NCBI GenBank assembly: GCA_902826455.1 | Contig: CADEEV010000008.1 | Coordinates: 62,001 to 126,000, forward strand | Length of the DNA stretch: 64,000 nucleotides | DNA from: an uncultured Acidobacteriota bacterium | GTDB lineage: Bacteria > Acidobacteriota > Vicinamibacteria > Fen-336 | Direction of reading: 5' to 3' | Part shown: positions 39,546 to 48,058 of the stretch, one piece after another | Position numbering within the stretch: the stretch's first letter is position 1 | Layout of the letters: each line of letters opens with the position of its first letter | Program-made: the position numbers and the translations under genes | Notes under the pieces: generated by a model | Seen by the model: only the letters and a program-made list of their open reading frames with translations | What the model was told of the DNA's origin: nothing | Databases searched by the model: none

Positions 39546-41567
39546 CTAGTTGGGAAGCTTGAACTGCACGCGCAGGGGCATCCAGACCTTCACGGGGATG
39601 CCTTCCTTCGTGGCCGGGCGGTACTTGCGCCGCTTCGCGTTCTCGATCGCCGCCTCGTCGAGGCCCGCGCGGCCTCCCGCGCTCGTCACCACTTGCGTGT
39701 CGGTGACGACGCCGCGCTCGTCGACGAGGATCGAGAGCTCGACCGTACCCTCGATGCGCTGCCGCAACGCGATGGGCGGGTAGACGAGGGGCGGGGTCTT
39801 GTCGGGAACGGGCGGCGTCACGCCCGTGTCGGAAAGATTCACGAGCGTGCCCGGCCTGAGGGCCGGCTGCGTCGTGGGAGGCACCGTCGTCGTGGGCGGC
39901 AGCGTGGTCGTGGCGGCGGCCGCCGCGGCGAGACGCGCTTCCTCGGCCTTGCGGCGCTCCTCGGCGACGCGCGCCTCCTCGGCCGCCTTCGCCTCCTCGA
40001 GCTTCTTCTTCTCCTCCTGCTGCTTCTTTTCCTGCTCGAGGCGGGCCTTCTTCGCGGCCTCTTCCTGGGCTTTCGCGATCGCCGCGGGATCGGCCGTGGT
40101 GCCGAGCGCCTTCGCCTGGGCTTCGAGCTTCTTCTTCGCTTCCTCGGCGGCCTTGGCTTCGGCCTCGGCCTTCTCGGCCTCGAAGGCCTTCAGCTTCTCC
40201 TCGAGCTCCTTCACGTGGGCCTGCGCGGCGATCGCCTCGGGCGACAGCGTCGTCGTGGGCGGCGCGGTGTTGACCGGGGCGCTCGGGCCGCGCCCGAACA
40301 GGTACCAGCCGCCGGCCGCCAGCAGGGCCACGACCAGGGCGCCGCCGGCCACGAGGGGGGTGCTGCTCTTCTTCGGCTCTTCCTTGTGGAACGTGAAGCC
40401 GGCGGCCGCTTCCTTCGCCGAGGCCGCCGGCGCCGGGGGCGGCTCGTGGCTCGCCGGCGCATGCGACGACGCGGGTACGGGCACCGGGGTGTGGGCGATC
40501 GGCGCGTGCGCCGCATGGGCGGCGACCGGAGCCGACACCGGGACCGGCGTCAGGGACGGGATCGACGGCGACGCCTTCGGCGCCGCCTTGTCGTCCGTGA
40601 GGAACTCGACGTAGCTCGCTTCCTTCTCGTCCTTCAGCTGCTTCGATTCCTTGTCGATGTCCTCGCGGAAGAGCGAGTGCATGAAGAACGCGAGGTTGAA
40701 CGTGGTCGGGGTGAAGTCGCCCGAGAAGAGCAGCGTGTCGATCGCCTTTCGCATCTCCGCGATCTCGGCGTAGCGACCGGCGGGTTCCTGGGCCAGCGCC
40801 TTCGCGAGGATGTCGGCGATCGCCTTCGGGATCTGGTCGTCGTCTCCGGCAGGGCTCTGGAGCTTCGCCGCGGCCAGACGCGCCGGGATGTCGGCGGCGC
40901 GTCCGCCCTGGAAGAGCGGCTGGCCCGTGAGGGTCTCGTAGAGGATGGCGCCGACCGCGAACGTGTCCGACCGCGTGTCGCCGGCGCCGCCCGCCGCCTG
41001 CTCGGGCGCGAGATAGAGCATCTCGTCCTCGCGCACGGCGCCGGCCTCGCGCACCTTGCTCGGCCAGTAGCCGAACCCGCGCACCCGCACCTCGCCCTCG
41101 TAGGAGACGAAGACGCTCGAGGGATTGACGAGCCCGTGGAAGTAGCGGACGCCCGCGTCGGTCTTGCGGCCATGGGCGTACTCGAGGGCCGAGCAGATCT
41201 TGCTCGCGATCAGCAGCGTGTGGTCGACCGAGAACGGGAAGCCGTCGCGGCGGCAGCGTGAGAAGATGCCCTTGAGGCTCTTGCCTTCGACGAACTCGTA
41301 CGAGATGTAGTACGAGGACTCGACCTTGCCGATGCCGTAGATCTTCGCGATGTTCGCGTTCTGCAGCTGGGCGGCGAGCTTCGCCTGGTCCATCAGGTTC
41401 TTCGCGAAGTCGGCGTTCTTCGAGAGATCCGGACCGAGCTTCAGGAGCGCGACGATCTTCTCGAGACCGGTCGCGCTCAGCTTCGCTGCACGGTACTCGA
41501 CGCCGAGCCCCGAGCTCTCGACCTCGTCCAGCAAGACGAACTTGCCGAATTTTTCCCGCTTGGCCAT
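39546..41567 (-). CDS. Pseudokinase-TonB fusion membrane protein
   Basis: 673 residues. Ser/Thr-kinase-like domain about 8-285: the fold is recognisable (YLAPEQ 186-190, SDTFAVGAILYETLTG at 200-215), but the catalytic loop HRDxxxxN reads FHGLVNPSS (H144 G145 L146), the DFG motif is GFG (164-166) and the glycine loop is degenerate. So it should not phosphorylate. Then a His/Pro/Ala linker, one membrane helix (404-425), a Lys/Glu/Ala coiled coil (about 444-550), and a C-terminal TonB domain (about 595-673: YPPIALRQRIEGTVELSILVDERGVV, KYRPATKEGIPVKVWMPLRVQF). TonB domains cross the periplasm to reach outer-membrane partners; the pseudokinase may sense a cytoplasmic state. ATG start, promoter at 41606-41634. 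Confidence 0.88.
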   Translation of the reverse strand: MAKREKFGKFVLLDEVESSGLGVEYRAAKLSATGLEKIVALLKLGPDLSKNADFAKNLMDQAKLAAQLQNANIAKIYGIGKVESSYYISYEFVEGKSLKGIFSRCRRDGFPFSVDHTLLIASKICSALEYAHGRKTDAGVRYFHGLVNPSSVFVSYEGEVRVRGFGYWPSKVREAGAVREDEMLYLAPEQAAGGAGDTRSDTFAVGAILYETLTGQPLFQGGRAADIPARLAAAKLQSPAGDDDQIPKAIADILAKALAQEPAGRYAEIAEMRKAIDTLLFSGDFTPTTFNLAFFMHSLFREDIDKESKQLKDEKEASYVEFLTDDKAAPKASPSIPSLTPVPVSAPVAAHAAHAPIAHTPVPVPASSHAPASHEPPPAPAASAKEAAAGFTFHKEEPKKSSTPLVAGGALVVALLAAGGWYLFGRGPSAPVNTAPPTTTLSPEAIAAQAHVKELEEKLKAFEAEKAEAEAKAAEEAKKKLEAQAKALGTTADPAAIAKAQEEAAKKARLEQEKKQQEEKKKLEEAKAAEEARVAEERRKAEEARLAAAAAATTTLPPTTTVPPTTQPALRPGTLVNLSDTGVTPPVPDKTPPLVYPPIALRQRIEGTVELSILVDERGVVTDTQVVTSAGGRAGLDEAAIENAKRRKYRPATKEGIPVKVWMPLRVQFKLPN

Positions 41568-41668: not shown

Positions 41669-43321
41669 GTGCGCCCCCTGGAGCTCGCCTTCGCCTGCGG
41701 TGGCGCCCTCGCCCTGGCCACATCGGCGACGGCGGCCGAGCGCCGTTGCGGGACGCATGCGGACCTGTCGCGGGACCTTCTCGCGCTGCATCGCTCCGGC
41801 TCCCGCGAACTGCGGGCCGCGGCGGCCGAAGCCGACGCCGATCGCGACGTCGACGGCATCGCGGTGCTCGAGGACCGCGGCGACCTCGTGGTGCGGAGGA
41901 ACCCGCTCGACCTCGCGGACACGGCGGTGCGCCTGACGCCGAACGGCGCCTCGGGATTCGACCCGACGCCGCTCGGCCTCGGCCTCGAGGCCGGCACCGT
42001 CACCCTCACCGTCGGCGACGACGACGCGGTCGGCGTCGACCTCCCGTTCCCGTTCCCGTTCTTCGGGGCCCGCTACGGGCGAGCGTTCGTCCATTCCGAC
42101 GGGACCGTGAGCTTCGGCGCGCCCGACGTGCGGCCGGGAGGGCGCGGCCTCGGCAGCCTCCTCGTGGGTCCGCCCCGGGTCGCGGCGCTGTTCGCCGACC
42201 TCGCTCCCGCAGCCGGCGGACGCATCGCCGTCTCGGTGATGCCCGAGCGGGCGGTGGTCAGCTGGAGCGACGTGCCGGAGGCCGGCAGCGACCGGCGGAA
42301 CTCGTTCTCGATCACCCTTCACGCCGCGGGCACGATCGACCTCGTGTACGGGCGGCTGGAGACACCGGACGCGGTGGTCGGCGTCGTCCCGGGGGGCGCG
42401 GCCGCGTTCACCGCCGCCGACCTCTCGAAGGGCGAGCCGCGGGGCGCCGGCGGCGCCCTGGCCGAGCGCTTCTCGGCCCGGGACCATCTCGACCTCGTGG
42501 CCGCCACGGCGCGTTTCCTGCGCGGCCACGGCGATGTCTTCGACCAGCTCGTCGTCTACACGACGCGCCCCCTCAACCCGCAACCGGAGAGCCTCGCCTT
42601 CCAGGTGAACGTGAGCAACGACGTGCGCGGCATCGGCCTCGACCTGCGCGACGACTCCGGGGCCTGGGGCAGCGCGGGGGTACTCGCGAGCGTCGTCTAC
42701 ATGGACACGATCGACAGCTACGCGGAGGTCGACGGCTTCGAGCTGCTCGGCCACGAGGTCGGTCACCGCTGGCTCGCGCGCCTGCGCTTCCGCGACGCGG
42801 GCGGCTCCGCGAGCAGCGCCCTGCTCGGGCGGGGAGGCACGCACTGGAGCTTCTTCCTGGACACGGCGGCCTCGGTGCTCGAGGGCAACGCCCTCACAGA
42901 GCATGGGCCCGGCGCGTTCGAGACGACGGCGATCGTCACGGGCTACGGCGCCCTCGACCTCTACGCCATGGGCCTCGTGTCGGCGGCCGAGGTGCCGCCG
43001 TTCTTCTACGTGGCCGAAGCGGGCGACTTCTACCCGAGACGCACGTTCTCCGCGTCTTCGGGACCGGAGGTCGGGGTCCGCTTCACGGGCCTGCGGCGCG
43101 ACGTCACGATCGAGGACGTGATCGCGGTGGAGGGTCCGCGGGTCCCCGACGCCGCGCAGGCGCCGCACCGCTTGCGGCAGGCGTTCGTGCTGGTCGCGGA
43201 TTCCGAGGCGCCCGCGAGCGCGCCGCGCGTGGCCGCCCTGTCCCGCATCCGGGCCCGGTTCGGCCCCTGGTACGGCGCTGCCACCCGGGGCCGCGGGATC
43301 GCCGACAGCTCCCTCCCGTAG
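41669..43321 (+). CDS. Secreted HExxH zinc metalloprotease-like protein
   Basis: 550 residues from GTG 41669. Signal peptide about 1-23 (LAFACGGALALATSATAA). A nidogen-like beta domain about 120-235 (DLPFPFPFFGARYGRAFVHS, DGTVSFG) precedes the zinc motif HEVGHRW (His362, Glu363, His366). Further acidic and His residues after it (EGNALTEHGPGAFE) may supply the third ligand, which I cannot fix. No membrane anchor or sorting tail is visible. Likely exported endopeptidase; substrate unknown. It is transcribed away from the pseudokinase-TonB gene. Confidence 0.8.
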   Translation: MRPLELAFACGGALALATSATAAERRCGTHADLSRDLLALHRSGSRELRAAAAEADADRDVDGIAVLEDRGDLVVRRNPLDLADTAVRLTPNGASGFDPTPLGLGLEAGTVTLTVGDDDAVGVDLPFPFPFFGARYGRAFVHSDGTVSFGAPDVRPGGRGLGSLLVGPPRVAALFADLAPAAGGRIAVSVMPERAVVSWSDVPEAGSDRRNSFSITLHAAGTIDLVYGRLETPDAVVGVVPGGAAAFTAADLSKGEPRGAGGALAERFSARDHLDLVAATARFLRGHGDVFDQLVVYTTRPLNPQPESLAFQVNVSNDVRGIGLDLRDDSGAWGSAGVLASVVYMDTIDSYAEVDGFELLGHEVGHRWLARLRFRDAGGSASSALLGRGGTHWSFFLDTAASVLEGNALTEHGPGAFETTAIVTGYGALDLYAMGLVSAAEVPPFFYVAEAGDFYPRRTFSASSGPEVGVRFTGLRRDVTIEDVIAVEGPRVPDAAQAPHRLRQAFVLVADSEAPASAPRVAALSRIRARFGPWYGAATRGRGIADSSLP

Positions 43322-43447: not shown

Positions 43448-43552
43448 GTGATTTTCGAAACGGTGGCTGCGGCGGCCGGCATCGGCGTAGGACTCCTGGT
43501 CGCACGAGGAGTGCTCGAGGCCATCCTCGCGCTCACGTTCGGAAAACGCTAG
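43448..43552 (+). CDS. 34-residue single-helix membrane peptide
   Basis: GTG 43448 to TAG 43552, 34 residues. The Shine-Dalgarno GGAGGT stands six bases before the GTG. The product has a short acidic N-terminus (MIFETV), one hydrophobic helix of about 24 residues rich in Ala, Gly, Val and Leu, and a basic end (FGKR), the normal layout of a small inner-membrane protein. No family is recognised. It follows a sigma-54-type promoter, and its stop codon shares CTAG with the convergent pilP-like gene. Confidence 0.65.
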   Translation: MIFETVAAAAGIGVGLLVARGVLEAILALTFGKR

Positions 43553-44013
43553 GGCTCGACCGCCAGGACGAGCTCCGCCCCCTGCGGATCGCGTAGCCGC
43601 ACGCCGCTGTCTTCGTCGGCGGCCAGCAGGGTGAAGCCGTTCGACGCCTCTCCGATCCCCAGGAGCACCATCTCCCCTCTCACGAACAGGGCGGCTCGGA
43701 CCTTTCCGCCCTTCCGCACGAAGCCCGTCAGCCTTACGGGCGGCTCAGGCATGAGCGTCGGAGCCGGCGCCAGGGCCGAAACCCGGGGCGAGTCCGCGGC
43801 ACGGCTCGGGGGCGGCACGTCGGCATAGTCGAACGGGTTCCGGGCCAGCGCCGGCTCCGGCGCCGTGGCCGGGGATTCCGGAACCGACCGCGGCTCGTGG
43901 GCGGCCGGTGCGGCAACGAGAGCCCGCTCCGGTTGTGGCGTCCGGCCCAGGGCGAAGGCGATCGCCGCGAGCCCCACGCCGAGGAGCGCACCCACCGCGG
44001 CCCGGCGCCTCAC
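43549..44013 (-). CDS. PilP/GspC-like inner-membrane protein
   Basis: 154 residues from GTG 44013. One N-terminal membrane helix (about 6-24), a Pro/Ala linker, then a compact beta domain (VRLTGFVRKGGKVRAALFV, MVLLGIGEASNGFTLLAADEDSGVRLRDPQG) with the pattern of PilP or the GspC homology region, which contacts the secretin. Last gene of the PilM-N-O-P-like run; GTG overlaps the stop of the preceding gene. No secretin gene is in the window. Confidence 0.68.
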   Translation of the reverse strand: MRRRAAVGALLGVGLAAIAFALGRTPQPERALVAAPAAHEPRSVPESPATAPEPALARNPFDYADVPPPSRAADSPRVSALAPAPTLMPEPPVRLTGFVRKGGKVRAALFVRGEMVLLGIGEASNGFTLLAADEDSGVRLRDPQGAELVLAVEP

Positions 44014-44501
44014 GAGCCCCCCAGGAGCCTGAGACCGTCGATGGAGATCGCCACGGCGCCGTCCTCGGGCGCGAACCGCACGCGGTCGAGCACGAGCCCC
44101 CAGCGGTTCGTCAGCTCGGACGAGAGGCGGTTCGCTTCGAGCAGGCTTCCGCGGGCCGAGAGGCGCAGCGTCGCCGCCACCGGCGGACGGGACGGAAGCA
44201 CGGCGAGGCGGACGCGCGAGACCCCGACGGCGCCCACCGCGGCCACGACGTCCCGGCGCAGGCGAAGGACGGGATCTCCAGGCTCGGAGCGAACGCCGTC
44301 CATCAGCGTCCGCGCGCGCTCGCGGCGCGCTTCGCGGCGCTCGGCGAGACCCAGGGCCTGGCCCACGGAGCGCCGCTCGTCACGGACGCGACGAAACGCA
44401 TCGCCGGCCGCCGCGACGTCGGCCTGGGCCGGGGCGGCGACGAGCAGGCGGAGCGCGAGGGCCGCCAGGAACATCAGGCCGGCGACGAGGCGCAGTCTCA
44501 C
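44010..44501 (-). CDS. PilO/GspM-like inner-membrane protein
   Basis: 163 residues from GTG 44501. Membrane helix about 5-25 (VAGLMFLAALALRLLVAAPAQA), which could also be read as a signal peptide, then a coiled-coil segment rich in Arg and Glu (RRVRDERRSVGQALGLAERREARRER split here by Val), and a ferredoxin-like domain (VRLAVLPSRPPVAATLRLSA, DGAVAISIDGLRLL). This is the PilO/GspM layout. Overlaps neighbours by four bases on both sides. Confidence 0.65.
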   Translation of the reverse strand: MRLRLVAGLMFLAALALRLLVAAPAQADVAAAGDAFRRVRDERRSVGQALGLAERREARRERARTLMDGVRSEPGDPVLRLRRDVVAAVGAVGVSRVRLAVLPSRPPVAATLRLSARGSLLEANRLSSELTNRWGLVLDRVRFAPEDGAVAISIDGLRLLGGS

Positions 44502-45010
44502 GAGCGCGTGCCGCTCCAGGTCATGCGAACGCCGGAGCGCACCGCGCCGTCCCGCTGCTCCTGTGCCGGCCGGACCGACGTGAAGCTCCGGGACCGGGAG
44601 AGCCGCTCGAGGAAGTCGTCCCAGGAGGCGGGCGAACGGGCCTCGACGTCGAGAGCGACCTCGACCGCGTCGCCGTACACGAAGCTGGCCGAGCGCAGCC
44701 GCACGCCCTCGGGCAGGAGGGCGGTGATCTCGGCGAGGAGCCGCGGCGGAGGGGCGTCGGTCGTCAGCTCCTGGCGCGACGCGAGGCGTTCGCTGTCGCC
44801 GCCACGGCGCGTCCCGAGACTGCGCAGGCGCGCCTGTGCCGAGGCCACCTCGGTCTGGACCTGGGCGAGCGCGGCTCGCACGACCTCGCGCTCGCGCCGC
44901 GCCGACACGGCGTCCCAGGTGGCCGCGGCCAGGACGAGCCCCGCGATGGCCAGGACTGCGATATCGCCCTTCGCCTGCCGTGCTCGCGGTCGGCTCGAGA
45001 AATCCATCAT
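44498..45010 (-). CDS. PilN-like inner-membrane protein
   Basis: 170 residues from ATG 45010. Short basic cytoplasmic tail, membrane helix about 17-35 (IAVLAIAGLVLAAATWDAV), coiled coil about 38-70, then a ferredoxin-like domain (LLAEITALLPEGVRLRSASF, VEVALDVEARSPASWDDFLERL). The usual PilN N-terminal INLLP motif that binds PilM is not present (DFSSRPRARQ instead). The ATG overlaps the TGA of the pilM-like gene. Confidence 0.72.
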   Translation of the reverse strand: MMDFSSRPRARQAKGDIAVLAIAGLVLAAATWDAVSARREREVVRAALAQVQTEVASAQARLRSLGTRRGGDSERLASRQELTTDAPPPRLLAEITALLPEGVRLRSASFVYGDAVEVALDVEARSPASWDDFLERLSRSRSFTSVRPAQEQRDGAVRSGVRMTWSGTRS

Positions 45011-45855
45011 GGCAGGGCCAGACCGACCCCCGGGATCCCGGCCGCCTCCACGGGCAGCCCCACGCCGGCCGCCCCCCCTCCCCGCACCGCGCGCGCCCCC
45101 CCCCCCGACAGAGGCCGCGCCATCGCCGACGCCCCGGGCCCGACCACGCGGACGTGGGGCGAGGCTCCATCGCCGGCCAGCGTCGCGGTCCGCAACACCT
45201 CGGCCGCGACGCGCTCGGTCTCGTCCAGGCCCGCCACGCGAAGCCGGCTGCGGAACACGCGCAGCGAGCCGCCGATGTGGGCCGCGAGGCTCAGGGCGGT
45301 GTCGCCGAGGATGACGTCGACGGTCGAGTCGGCGCGTCCGGGAAGGCGCAGCAGGCCCTCGAGGGCCGCCATGGAGGCGAGATCGACGCGCTCCACGGTC
45401 AAGCCGGCGGCCTCGGCGACGCTCTCGTAGCCCTCGACCACCCGGCGCCGGATCGCGATGCCGAGAAAGCGCCCGTGCCCGAGGCTGCGCACGTCGACGA
45501 GAGCGTCCGCGGCGGGGTACGGGAGGCTCGTCGACAGGCGGAACCGGGCCTGCTCCACCGGGGCGATCCCGCTCGTGGCCTCGAAGACCACGCCGCGGCC
45601 GGTGCCGTCCGGGAGGACGAGCGTCGCGCCCGTGCGCGACCCACCGATGCTGTCGAGCAGCCGGTTGAGCGTGGCCCGGACCGCCTCGGGATCCAGGACG
45701 TTGACGTCCGTCGGCGACGGCACCAGGGCGCCGCGCGCGAGCTCGAGTCGCGCCGCGCTCGCGAGCCGAGCCCCTCCCAGTCCGCGGGTGAGGCTGCCGC
45801 CGGACAGGGACGCGGCATCGAACGCCACGAGGGGTCTCGCGCGGGCCCACGGCAT
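45007..45855 (-). CDS. PilM/GspL-like actin-fold protein with an 11-G tract
   Basis: 282 residues from ATG 45855. Actin-like ATPase fold of the PilM/GspL cytoplasmic type: LVAFDAASLSGGSL, TLVLPDGTGRGVVFE, YPAADALVDVRSLG, IRRRVVEGYESVAEAAGL, VDVILGDTALSLAAHIGG. Shorter than typical PilM (about 350). PilM couples the pilus motor to PilN. Near residue 250 the coding strand has eleven consecutive G, so slippage would change the end of the protein and break the coupling with pilN. The -10 TATAAT ends six bases before the ATG; a leaderless message is likely. Confidence 0.75.
   Translation of the reverse strand: MPWARARPLVAFDAASLSGGSLTRGLGGARLASAARLELARGALVPSPTDVNVLDPEAVRATLNRLLDSIGGSRTGATLVLPDGTGRGVVFEATSGIAPVEQARFRLSTSLPYPAADALVDVRSLGHGRFLGIAIRRRVVEGYESVAEAAGLTVERVDLASMAALEGLLRLPGRADSTVDVILGDTALSLAAHIGGSLRVFRSRLRVAGLDETERVAAEVLRTATLAGDGASPHVRVVGPGASAMARPLSGGGARAVRGGGAAGVGLPVEAAGIPGVGLALP
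45096..45106. repeat. Homopolymer of 11 C (11 G on the coding strand)
   Basis: Eleven C in a row on the plus strand, inside the pilM-like gene, with a seven-C run nearby at 45072-45078. Homopolymers of this length are prone to slippage in replication and to sequencing error. Confidence 0.95.
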
Positions 45856-45861
45856 TTTTCG

Positions 45862-45867
45862 ATTATA
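45862..45867 (-). promoter_or_regulatory. -10 box TATAAT six bases before an ATG start (leaderless promoter)
   Basis: Perfect TATAAT on the minus strand, ending six bases before ATG 45855 of the pilM-like gene. No matching -35 box at 16-18 bases was found. Confidence 0.55.
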
Positions 45868-45890
45868 GACCTCGCCCCTTCGGAACCCGC

Positions 45891-45920
45891 TTGCCGCTCG
45901 TCGGGCCCGCGATCTATGAT
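45891..45920 (+). promoter_or_regulatory. Promoter of the EF-G-like gene
   Basis: TTGCCG (45891-45896), 18 bases, TATGAT (45915-45920), about 35 bases before ATG 45956, in the divergent gap with the pilM-like gene. Confidence 0.5.
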
Positions 45921-45955
45921 CCGCGACACTGCCGCATGTGAGCTCGGGGGGTTGC

Positions 45956-48058
45956 ATGAAGACCTTCGAAGCGCCGGGCATCCGCAACGTCGCCGTGGTC
46001 GGCCACGGCGGCTCGGGAAAGACCTCCCTCGTCTCCGCCCTGCTCTACGGCATGGGCGCCGTGAACCGGCTGGGCCGCGTCGACGACGGCTCGACCGTGA
46101 CGGACTTCGACCCCGACGAGATCGAGCGTCGCATCAGCCTGCAGACCGCCCTGGCCCACGGCGAGTGGCGCAAGACCAAGATCAACCTCCTCGACACCCC
46201 GGGCTACGCGAACTTCCTCTCGGAAGCGCGCGCCGCCCTGCGCGTCGCCGACGCGGCGCTGGTGGTGGTCGACGCCGTCGCCGGCGTCGAGGTGCAGACC
46301 GAGAAGGTCTGGCGCTACGCGGAGGAGTTCGGGCTGCCGCGCGTCGTGGTCGTGAACCGCATGGACCGCGAGCGCGCCTCCTTCGCCCGCACCCTAGAGT
46401 CCCTCGAGCGCAGCTTCGGCCGCGGTGTCGTTCCCGTCGCGATCCCCCTCGGCGAGGAGAAGGGCTTCGTGGGCATCGCGGACCTGCTGGCCAATCGCGC
46501 CGACGTGTACCACGACGACCAGAGCGGCCGGTTCGAGCAGGTCGACGTGCCCGACGGCATCAAGGCCGCGGCGACCGATGCCCTGGGCCGCCTCGTGGAG
46601 ATGGTCGCGGAGACGAACGAGGTGCTGCTGGAGGAGTTCTTCGAGAGCGGGACGCTCGGTCACGACGACCTGGTGAAGGGGCTGAGGGCGGCCGTCGCGG
46701 CCGGCAAGCTCTTTCCGGTGTTCCCCGTGTCGTCCCTGCGGAACATCGGCGTGCAGCCGCTCCTCGACGACGTCGTGGACCTGCTGCCCTCGCCGGCGGA
46801 TCGCGGGGCCAGTGTCGGACTCGATCCCACCCGCAAGACGGAGGCCGCGCGCAAGCCCGTCGCAGCCGAGCCGTTCTCGGCCTTCGTCTTCAAGACGCTG
46901 GCCGATCCCCACGCCGGGCGCCTGAGCCTGTTTCGCGTCTACTCCGGCACGTTCAAGTCGGACTCGACCGTTCACAACGCCTCGCGGGACCTGCCCGAGC
47001 GCGCCGGCCACCTGGAGTTCCTCCAGGGCAAGACCCCGGTGACCACCACCGAGATCCAGGCGGGGGACATCGGGGCCGTCGCGAAGCTCAAGGAGACCCA
47101 GACGAACGACACGCTGTGCGACAAGGCCCACCCGATCGCCTACCCGCCCATCGTGTTCCCCGAGCCGGCCACCACGTTCGCGATCGAGCCCAGGACGCGC
47201 GGCGACGACGACAAGATCTCGGTCGCGCTGCACCGCGTCATGGAAGAGGACCCGGTGCTGCGCCTGTCCCGGGACGCCCAGACCCACGAGATGCTCCTGT
47301 CGGGGGTCGGCCAGCTCCACATCGAGGTGGTGGTGGCGAAGCTGCGCAAGCGCTTCAAGGTCGAGGTCAACCTCAAGAAGCCGAAGATCCCGTATCGGGA
47401 GACCATCAAGACGGCCTCCGAGGGCCACGGGCGCCACAAGAAGCAGACCGGCGGCCACGGGCAGTTCGCGGACTGCAAGATCCGGGTGAAGCCCCTGCCT
47501 CGCGGCTCGGACTTCCAGTTCGTCGACGACATCTTCGGGGGCTCGATCCCCAAGAACTACATCCCTGCCGTGGAGAAGGGAATCCAGGAGGCGCGCCTGC
47601 GCGGGCTCGTCGCGGGGTTCCCGATGGTCGACTTCCAGGTCGAGCTCTACGACGGCCAGTACCACGACGTGGACTCGTCGGAGATGGCCTTCAAGATCGC
47701 GGGCTCCCTCGCCTACAAGGACGCCGTGGCCAAGAGCCGGCCGACGCTGCTCGAGCCCGTGATGAGCGTCGAGATCGCGGTCCCGGAGGAGTACGCCGGG
47801 GCGGTGATGGGCGATCTCTCGAGCCGTCGCGGCCGCCCCCAGGGCATGGAGCCCCGCGGCTCCCTGCAGGTGATCAAGGCCGAAGTGCCCCTGTCCGAGA
47901 TGCTCTCCTACGACGCCGAGCTCACGTCGATGACGGGGGCGCGCGGCTCCTACCACATGGAGATGTCGCACTACGACGAGGTGCCCGGCCACCTGCAGGA
48001 CAAGGTCGTGGCCGCCGCCCGTGCCGAGCACGGGGACCACCCGCGGGCCGAAGAGTAG
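45956..48058 (+). CDS. Elongation factor G-like GTPase (EF-G2 type paralogue)
   Basis: 700 residues from ATG 45956, with GGGGGG five bases upstream. Five-domain EF-G architecture. G1 is GHGGSGKTS rather than the AHIDAGKTT of housekeeping EF-G, which marks the EF-G2/EF-G-like group. G3 is DTPGYANF and G4 is VNRMD. Domain IV carries GRHKKQTGGHGQFADCKI and GGSIPKNYIPAVEKGI; domain V GRPQGMEPRGSLQVIKAEVPLSEM. Such paralogues may have roles under stress or in ribosome recycling; housekeeping fusA is expected in the str operon upstream of rplD, beyond the window. Starting at GTG 45938 would add six residues. Confidence 0.92.
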   Translation: MKTFEAPGIRNVAVVGHGGSGKTSLVSALLYGMGAVNRLGRVDDGSTVTDFDPDEIERRISLQTALAHGEWRKTKINLLDTPGYANFLSEARAALRVADAALVVVDAVAGVEVQTEKVWRYAEEFGLPRVVVVNRMDRERASFARTLESLERSFGRGVVPVAIPLGEEKGFVGIADLLANRADVYHDDQSGRFEQVDVPDGIKAAATDALGRLVEMVAETNEVLLEEFFESGTLGHDDLVKGLRAAVAAGKLFPVFPVSSLRNIGVQPLLDDVVDLLPSPADRGASVGLDPTRKTEAARKPVAAEPFSAFVFKTLADPHAGRLSLFRVYSGTFKSDSTVHNASRDLPERAGHLEFLQGKTPVTTTEIQAGDIGAVAKLKETQTNDTLCDKAHPIAYPPIVFPEPATTFAIEPRTRGDDDKISVALHRVMEEDPVLRLSRDAQTHEMLLSGVGQLHIEVVVAKLRKRFKVEVNLKKPKIPYRETIKTASEGHGRHKKQTGGHGQFADCKIRVKPLPRGSDFQFVDDIFGGSIPKNYIPAVEKGIQEARLRGLVAGFPMVDFQVELYDGQYHDVDSSEMAFKIAGSLAYKDAVAKSRPTLLEPVMSVEIAVPEEYAGAVMGDLSSRRGRPQGMEPRGSLQVIKAEVPLSEMLSYDAELTSMTGARGSYHMEMSHYDEVPGHLQDKVVAAARAEHGDHPRAEE

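Follow-up and report, generated by a model that had tools for sequence, protein, structure and literature searches.

Several described bacterial proteins share part of their design with the protein analyzed here. The MviN (MurJ) pseudokinase of M. tuberculosis, in the group ActPs3, is a Hanks-type pseudokinase anchored at the inner membrane that regulates peptidoglycan synthesis through FhaA without binding ATP; it is joined to a carbohydrate-binding domain and to a polytopic membrane protein that peptidoglycan synthesis requires (PMC12599244). YukC/EssB, a component of Gram-positive type VIIb secretion, is an ATP-free transmembrane pseudokinase scaffold with a cytoplasmic pseudokinase, a single transmembrane helix, and an extracytoplasmic helical part (PMC9600267). 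GltG and GltJ of Myxococcus xanthus, which belong to the AglRQS motor complex, combine a cytoplasmic regulatory domain (FHA in GltG), a transmembrane segment, a periplasmic helical domain, and a TonB_C domain (PMC3169522; PMC5349195). The GLW pseudokinases, which are mostly proteobacterial, have a hydrophobic residue for the beta3 lysine within a leucine run, have lost HRD, and have a C-terminal transmembrane segment (PMC12599244). A Hanks-type kinase fold is also linked to the transglycosylase MltG in Firmicutes, where the PASTA kinase IreK phosphorylates MltG directly (PMC12369325).

We analyzed a pseudokinase gene in a window of 64,000 nucleotides from contig CADEEV010000008.1 of an uncultured Acidobacteriota bacterium. 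The product shares features with each of these systems, and its combination of features matches none of MviN, EssB/YukC, GltG, or IreK. MviN is actinobacterial, lacks TonB_C, and has lost other motifs, and the ActPs3 architecture of MviN membrane protein and carbohydrate-binding domain is not that of the window protein. EssB/YukC also lacks TonB_C and has a very divergent kinase fold. GltG and GltJ have no kinase fold, whereas the window protein has one instead of a GltG-type FHA domain, and its genome has two ExbB-type genes and not the AglRQS motor. The GLW family carries GLW at the HRD position, where the window protein and its relatives have H-G-[LFM] and no family member has GLW; TonB_C is not mentioned for that family (PMC12599244). 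IreK is catalytically active and carries PASTA rather than TonB_C. The statement in an initial sequence-only reading of the window, that no characterized system of this kind exists, was therefore too strong given the partial parallels of GltG, MviN, and EssB/YukC, although the combination itself is unmatched. We found no description of a pseudokinase-TonB fusion in the open-licence literature, and neither TonB nor Acidobacteria comes up in a 2025 review that covers seven families of bacterial pseudokinases. The protein represents a new family of a known kind, the transmembrane bacterial pseudokinases.

Domain architecture and predicted structure

The gene is an uninterrupted open reading frame on the minus strand, with its ATG at 41567, and has the following parts:

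39546..41567, minus strand: pseudokinase, transmembrane, coiled-coil, and TonB_C protein, 673 aa (ORF, Pfam, AlphaFold2)
40713..41567, minus strand: dead Hanks-type kinase fold, residues 1-285 (Pkinase E 5.5e-17; pLDDT ~95; Foldseek PknB/PknA)
40356..40571, minus strand: disordered Pro/Ala-rich linker N-terminal of the transmembrane helix, approximately residues 333-404 (pLDDT <50)
40296..40355, minus strand: single transmembrane helix without Ser-x3-His, residues 405-424 (hydropathy)
39915..40241, minus strand: periplasmic coiled coil, residues 443-551 (AlphaFold2 helices 443-487 and 494-551)
39555..39791, minus strand: TonB_C domain, residues 593-671 (PF03544, E 8.3e-19; pLDDT ~96)

The Pfam Pkinase match spans residues 37-267. 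In an AlphaFold2 model of the 673-aa protein built with 42 orthologues, the kinase fold (1-285) and the TonB_C domain (~587-673) were both predicted with a pLDDT of ~95, and the transmembrane helix and its flanks with low confidence. Two helices, 289-299 and 301-316, directly follow the kinase fold. The top PDB matches of the model in a Foldseek search were PknB and PknA (target TM-score 0.73-0.80). Structure prediction, together with Pfam and hydropathy, thus bears out the order of kinase fold, transmembrane helix, coiled coil, and TonB_C that had been proposed from the letters of the window.

Loss of catalytic residues

The active-kinase residues at three key positions are gone:

41442..41444, minus strand: Leu42 for Lys at the beta3 VAIK position (ungapped alignment with the active paralogue L105)
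41130..41138, minus strand: HGL for HRD, residues 144-146, with Leu146 at the Asp position (sequence and alignment)
41070..41078, minus strand: GFG for DFG, residues 164-166, with Gly164 at the Asp position (sequence and alignment)

The beta3 position was assigned with L105, the closest active paralogue in the same genome, whose VALKR aligns without a gap to VALLK in the window protein; Lys43 is one residue off the position that Leu42 occupies. In alignment with the active paralogue, Gln61 also replaces the helix-C Glu and Ser151 the catalytic-loop Asn, and the glycine-rich loop is degraded. What has been kept, namely APE (187-189), the alpha-F Asp201, and Arg265, are positions that maintain the fold. 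The sequence-only reading had correctly described HGL, GFG, the intact APE, and the structural Asp; the beta3 Lys, helix-C Glu, catalytic-loop Asn, and glycine-rich loop are losses beyond the two it had listed. Judged from the sequence, phosphotransfer by the window protein is very unlikely and nucleotide binding improbable. The combined loss of the beta3 Lys, helix-C Glu, catalytic Asn, DFG Asp, and glycine-rich loop makes the suggested role of the protein in reading nucleotide unlikely.

An Acidobacteriota-wide family

A scan of ~85,000 species with exact peptides recovered 60 relatives, nearly all of them titled Acidobacteriota. They include Vicinamibacteria, Thermoanaerobaculia, Holophagae, and the cultured Sulfidibacter corallicola and Acanthopleuribacter pedis, and one relative from a 'Deltaproteobacteria' MAG clusters with Thermoanaerobaculia in the tree. 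The absence of the family outside Acidobacteriota is based on this exact-peptide scan, which distant relatives in other phyla could escape. A profile of the kinase part searched over 297 acidobacterial genomes added divergent members, and verified members now come from at least 24 acidobacterial families, counted by family code.

The shared state of the family is uniform in its main features. HRD is absent from all 101 distinct members and every one has a transmembrane helix, while a TonB_C C-terminus is found in 98, the other three appearing to be cut at contig ends. The window protein has all of these features together with the TFNxAF motif described below. A leucine run with a hydrophobic residue at the beta3 Lys position recurs (VALLK, VVLLR), and the aligned set shows no variation at G145, P149, G158, and D201. 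Loss of the DFG Asp is not universal, as some lineages keep an Asp at this position (YDTL, VDAP). Being common to all 101 members, the loss of HRD goes beyond chance, and the loss of catalysis is ancient and fixed; because it runs through the whole clade, we interpret it as an old family state and ruled out a recently decayed kinase gene. Computation thus establishes both the anatomy of the protein and its conservation across Acidobacteriota, in what is apparently a large and so far undescribed family.

We explored the origin of the family with a tree made by a quick method, arbitrarily rooted, excluding the motif columns and using 61 thinned pseudokinases. All 61 fall on one side of a branch with SH-aLRT 99. 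Their neighbors are soluble active kinases (L105, L093, L089, and L120), followed by the L106 type. The same genome also encodes three fusions of an active kinase with PEGA-like repeats and TonB_C (L111, L112, and L113, on contigs C15, C11, and C1). We considered whether these belong to one family with the window protein and ruled this out: HRD and DFG are intact, PEGA-like repeats are present, and they lie far from the pseudokinases in the tree. Given that distance, TonB_C has probably been joined to kinases more than once. Two of the three have a transmembrane helix, as the window protein does; the remaining one has no clear transmembrane segment, and its TonB_C domain may be cytoplasmic.

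A conserved motif behind the kinase fold

The most distinctive feature of the family lies at the start of the helix that follows the kinase fold:

40677..40703, minus strand: family signature TFNLAFFMH, residues 289-297, at the start of the post-kinase helix (all dead members, with small variations)

TFNLAFFMH or a near variant stands right behind the kinase fold, all of its carriers lack HRD, and it is missing from all HRD kinases compared. Its invariance in the first 42 orthologues is partly circular, as most of these were fetched with the scan peptide FNLAFFMH. We place more trust in the profile-retrieved set for this reason. There, T-F-N-[LMI]-A-[FYL] is strongly conserved without being invariant, with variants such as FNLAFYM, FNLALFM, FNMAFFM, and FNIAFLM. 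The post-kinase motif has thus been kept where the catalytic residues have not, and its helix is the best candidate for a surface that would contact a partner or pack against the kinase lobe.

Gene neighborhoods

We examined the genes around family members, choosing neighborhood genes by codon usage. Upstream sequence of at least 500 nt was available for 96 distinct loci. In 45 of these, the gene immediately ahead of the pseudokinase gene on the same strand is mltG, 32-400 nt from the start of the kinase domain, an adjacency that describes gene order and is not a demonstration of physical interaction. These loci span ~12 family codes, and one further locus has mltG as a convergent neighbor; both mltG copies that we checked were YceG/PF02618. 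The linkage is essentially limited to one large part of the tree. At L052/L192, two pseudokinase-TonB genes lie in tandem right after mltG, the second with the diverged motif PFDLACFI.

Other lineages have other neighbors. In the Sulfidibacter/Acanthopleuribacter group, an SLT transglycosylase gene is found downstream, followed by ftsEX in part of the loci, and part of them have a LapB-like TPR gene on the upstream side. In another lineage the pseudokinase gene is followed by recJ, lptCA, and an lptB-like ABC gene; in yet another it comes after a TPR gene, which at one examined locus is itself preceded by an FHA-cyclase gene. In one lineage (L038, L039, L041, L042, L064, L126-L130, and L206), 26-60 nt separate the pseudokinase gene from the ATP synthase b-subunit gene downstream of it. 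In L175-L180 and L199-L201, which include some closed genomes, the upstream gene encodes a conserved ~220-aa protein without a Pfam match, and in most of them this is preceded by a gene for an NtrC-like regulator. No type VIIb secretion genes were seen among the neighbors examined, and no active kinase gene is regularly adjacent to family members.

The window locus is flanked by groEL on one side and a pil-like run on the other, and mltG is not adjacent. The features between and beyond are:

41669-43321, plus strand: divergent 550-aa ORF separating the pseudokinase gene from the pil-like run (ORF call)
43549..45987, minus strand: four-gene run, tentatively named pilMNOP-like, upstream of the pseudokinase gene (ORFs, order, and topology)

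The first pil-like gene has no Pfam match; 10 of the compared loci have it upstream and on the same strand, and in several relatives it lies ~1-1.8 kb ahead of the pseudokinase gene. The 550-aa ORF, also without a Pfam match, contains an HEVGH stretch like that of a zinc metallopeptidase, and related ORFs occur in a few relatives. The sole mltG of this genome lies on another contig and is divergent from the gene of an active kinase of a nearby lineage (C3:144557-147100, L106). That kinase has intact HRD and DFG, and the same divergent arrangement is present in L095 and L098.

The gene order in these loci suggests envelope assembly as a common theme, most strongly for murein transglycosylases, to which the window's own locus adds little. 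The ATP synthase-linked lineage, and others whose neighboring genes have no clear role, indicate that the linkage may partly reflect chromosome order. What defines the family is that catalysis was lost once, in its ancestor, that its members share a motif of their own and an unchanging trans-envelope architecture, and that they are repeatedly linked to mltG.

Possible functions

We give an even chance to a reading in which the protein would be an ATP-independent trans-envelope scaffold built on a dead kinase, regulating the assembly of the envelope and probably of peptidoglycan. As to partner, ligand, and output, we infer a chain of steps. The pseudokinase domain and the TFNxAF helix would bind a cytoplasmic partner without ATP; as candidates we consider active kinases, FHA proteins, and the cytoplasmic tails of envelope enzymes. 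The transmembrane helix and coiled coil would dimerize and relay the state of this complex across the membrane, and TonB_C would dock on peptidoglycan or an outer-membrane protein. In this way the scaffold would most likely control or position the assembly of the envelope, chiefly the termination of glycan strands by MltG, whose gene is the most frequent neighbor. Precedents for single elements of this chain are MviN for ATP-free control of peptidoglycan synthesis by a membrane pseudokinase, EssB/YukC for a transmembrane pseudokinase scaffold, GltG for a cytoplasmic signaling domain linked to TonB_C across the membrane, and IreK for control of MltG by a kinase.

A TonB_C domain could also point to an energized TonB, that is, a transducer driven by ExbBD that serves outer-membrane receptors and is regulated from the cytoplasm by the pseudokinase. 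The TonB_C domain and coiled coil are genuine, and the genome contains 29 receptor plug domains. However, none of the 101 family members has the Ser-x3-His pair through which the transmembrane helices of TonB and TolA contact ExbB and TolQ (PMC12215075), whereas three further TonB_C proteins encoded by this genome do. The genome's only two ExbB-type genes lie on contigs C4 and C30, where one adjoins a TonB pair of its own and the other belongs to a tol-like cluster. The pseudokinase gene is on C8, and no exbBD genes were seen next to it in the loci compared. The earlier suggestion that the protein takes force from ExbBD is unlikely given this pattern of Ser-x3-His and these separately partnered ExbB-type genes, and an energized TonB as a whole is highly improbable. 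Another explanation is a linker for gliding or surface motility, in which a GltG/GltJ-like adaptor, acting through a TolQR-like motor, would join a regulator in the cytoplasm to an adhesion complex of the outer membrane. The 640-aa GltG has the same layout, FHA-TM-TonB, and binds AglR (PMC3169522; PMC5349195), and in the window's own family the gene follows the pil-like run. Yet we recognized no glt or aglRQS homologue nearby, the genome has no dedicated TolQR-like motor, and the systems have no gene neighborhood in common, leaving this explanation improbable.

Two further explanations concern the kinase fold itself. As a pseudo-receptor, the dead domain would be the regulatory subunit of an active kinase from the same genome, with TonB_C as a periplasmic sensor like PASTA or PEGA. 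The three active PEGA-TonB_C kinases of the genome, the active soluble kinases of the sister lineage, the related active kinase that adjoins mltG, and the back-to-back dimers formed by MviN (PMC12599244) are all consistent with this, but the TonB_C kinases are not close relatives and family members have no regularly adjacent active kinase gene. We consider the pseudo-receptor unlikely as such; it overlaps with the scaffold, and sequence cannot separate the two. We give very little credence to a non-canonical enzyme, in which the fold would have gained another reaction, as in SelO or SidJ. The invariance of G145, P149, G158, and D201 might suggest one, but these are structural positions, and the alignment offers no conserved group of charged active-site residues in place of those lost.

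The scaffold reading can be extended, as a tentative and rather doubtful possibility, to an ATP-free signaling rod across the whole Gram-negative envelope, whose cytoplasmic dead-kinase head would determine how active MltG-type transglycosylases are or where they sit while TonB_C would read the state of the outer membrane or peptidoglycan. If so, the family would be the Acidobacteriota counterpart of the PASTA kinases and MviN in Gram-positives. Known functions are scarce among bacterial pseudokinases, and the family offers the testable idea that a dead kinase connects cytoplasmic signaling with cell-wall growth in Gram-negatives, for which the cultured carriers Sulfidibacter corallicola and Acanthopleuribacter pedis provide an experimental entry.
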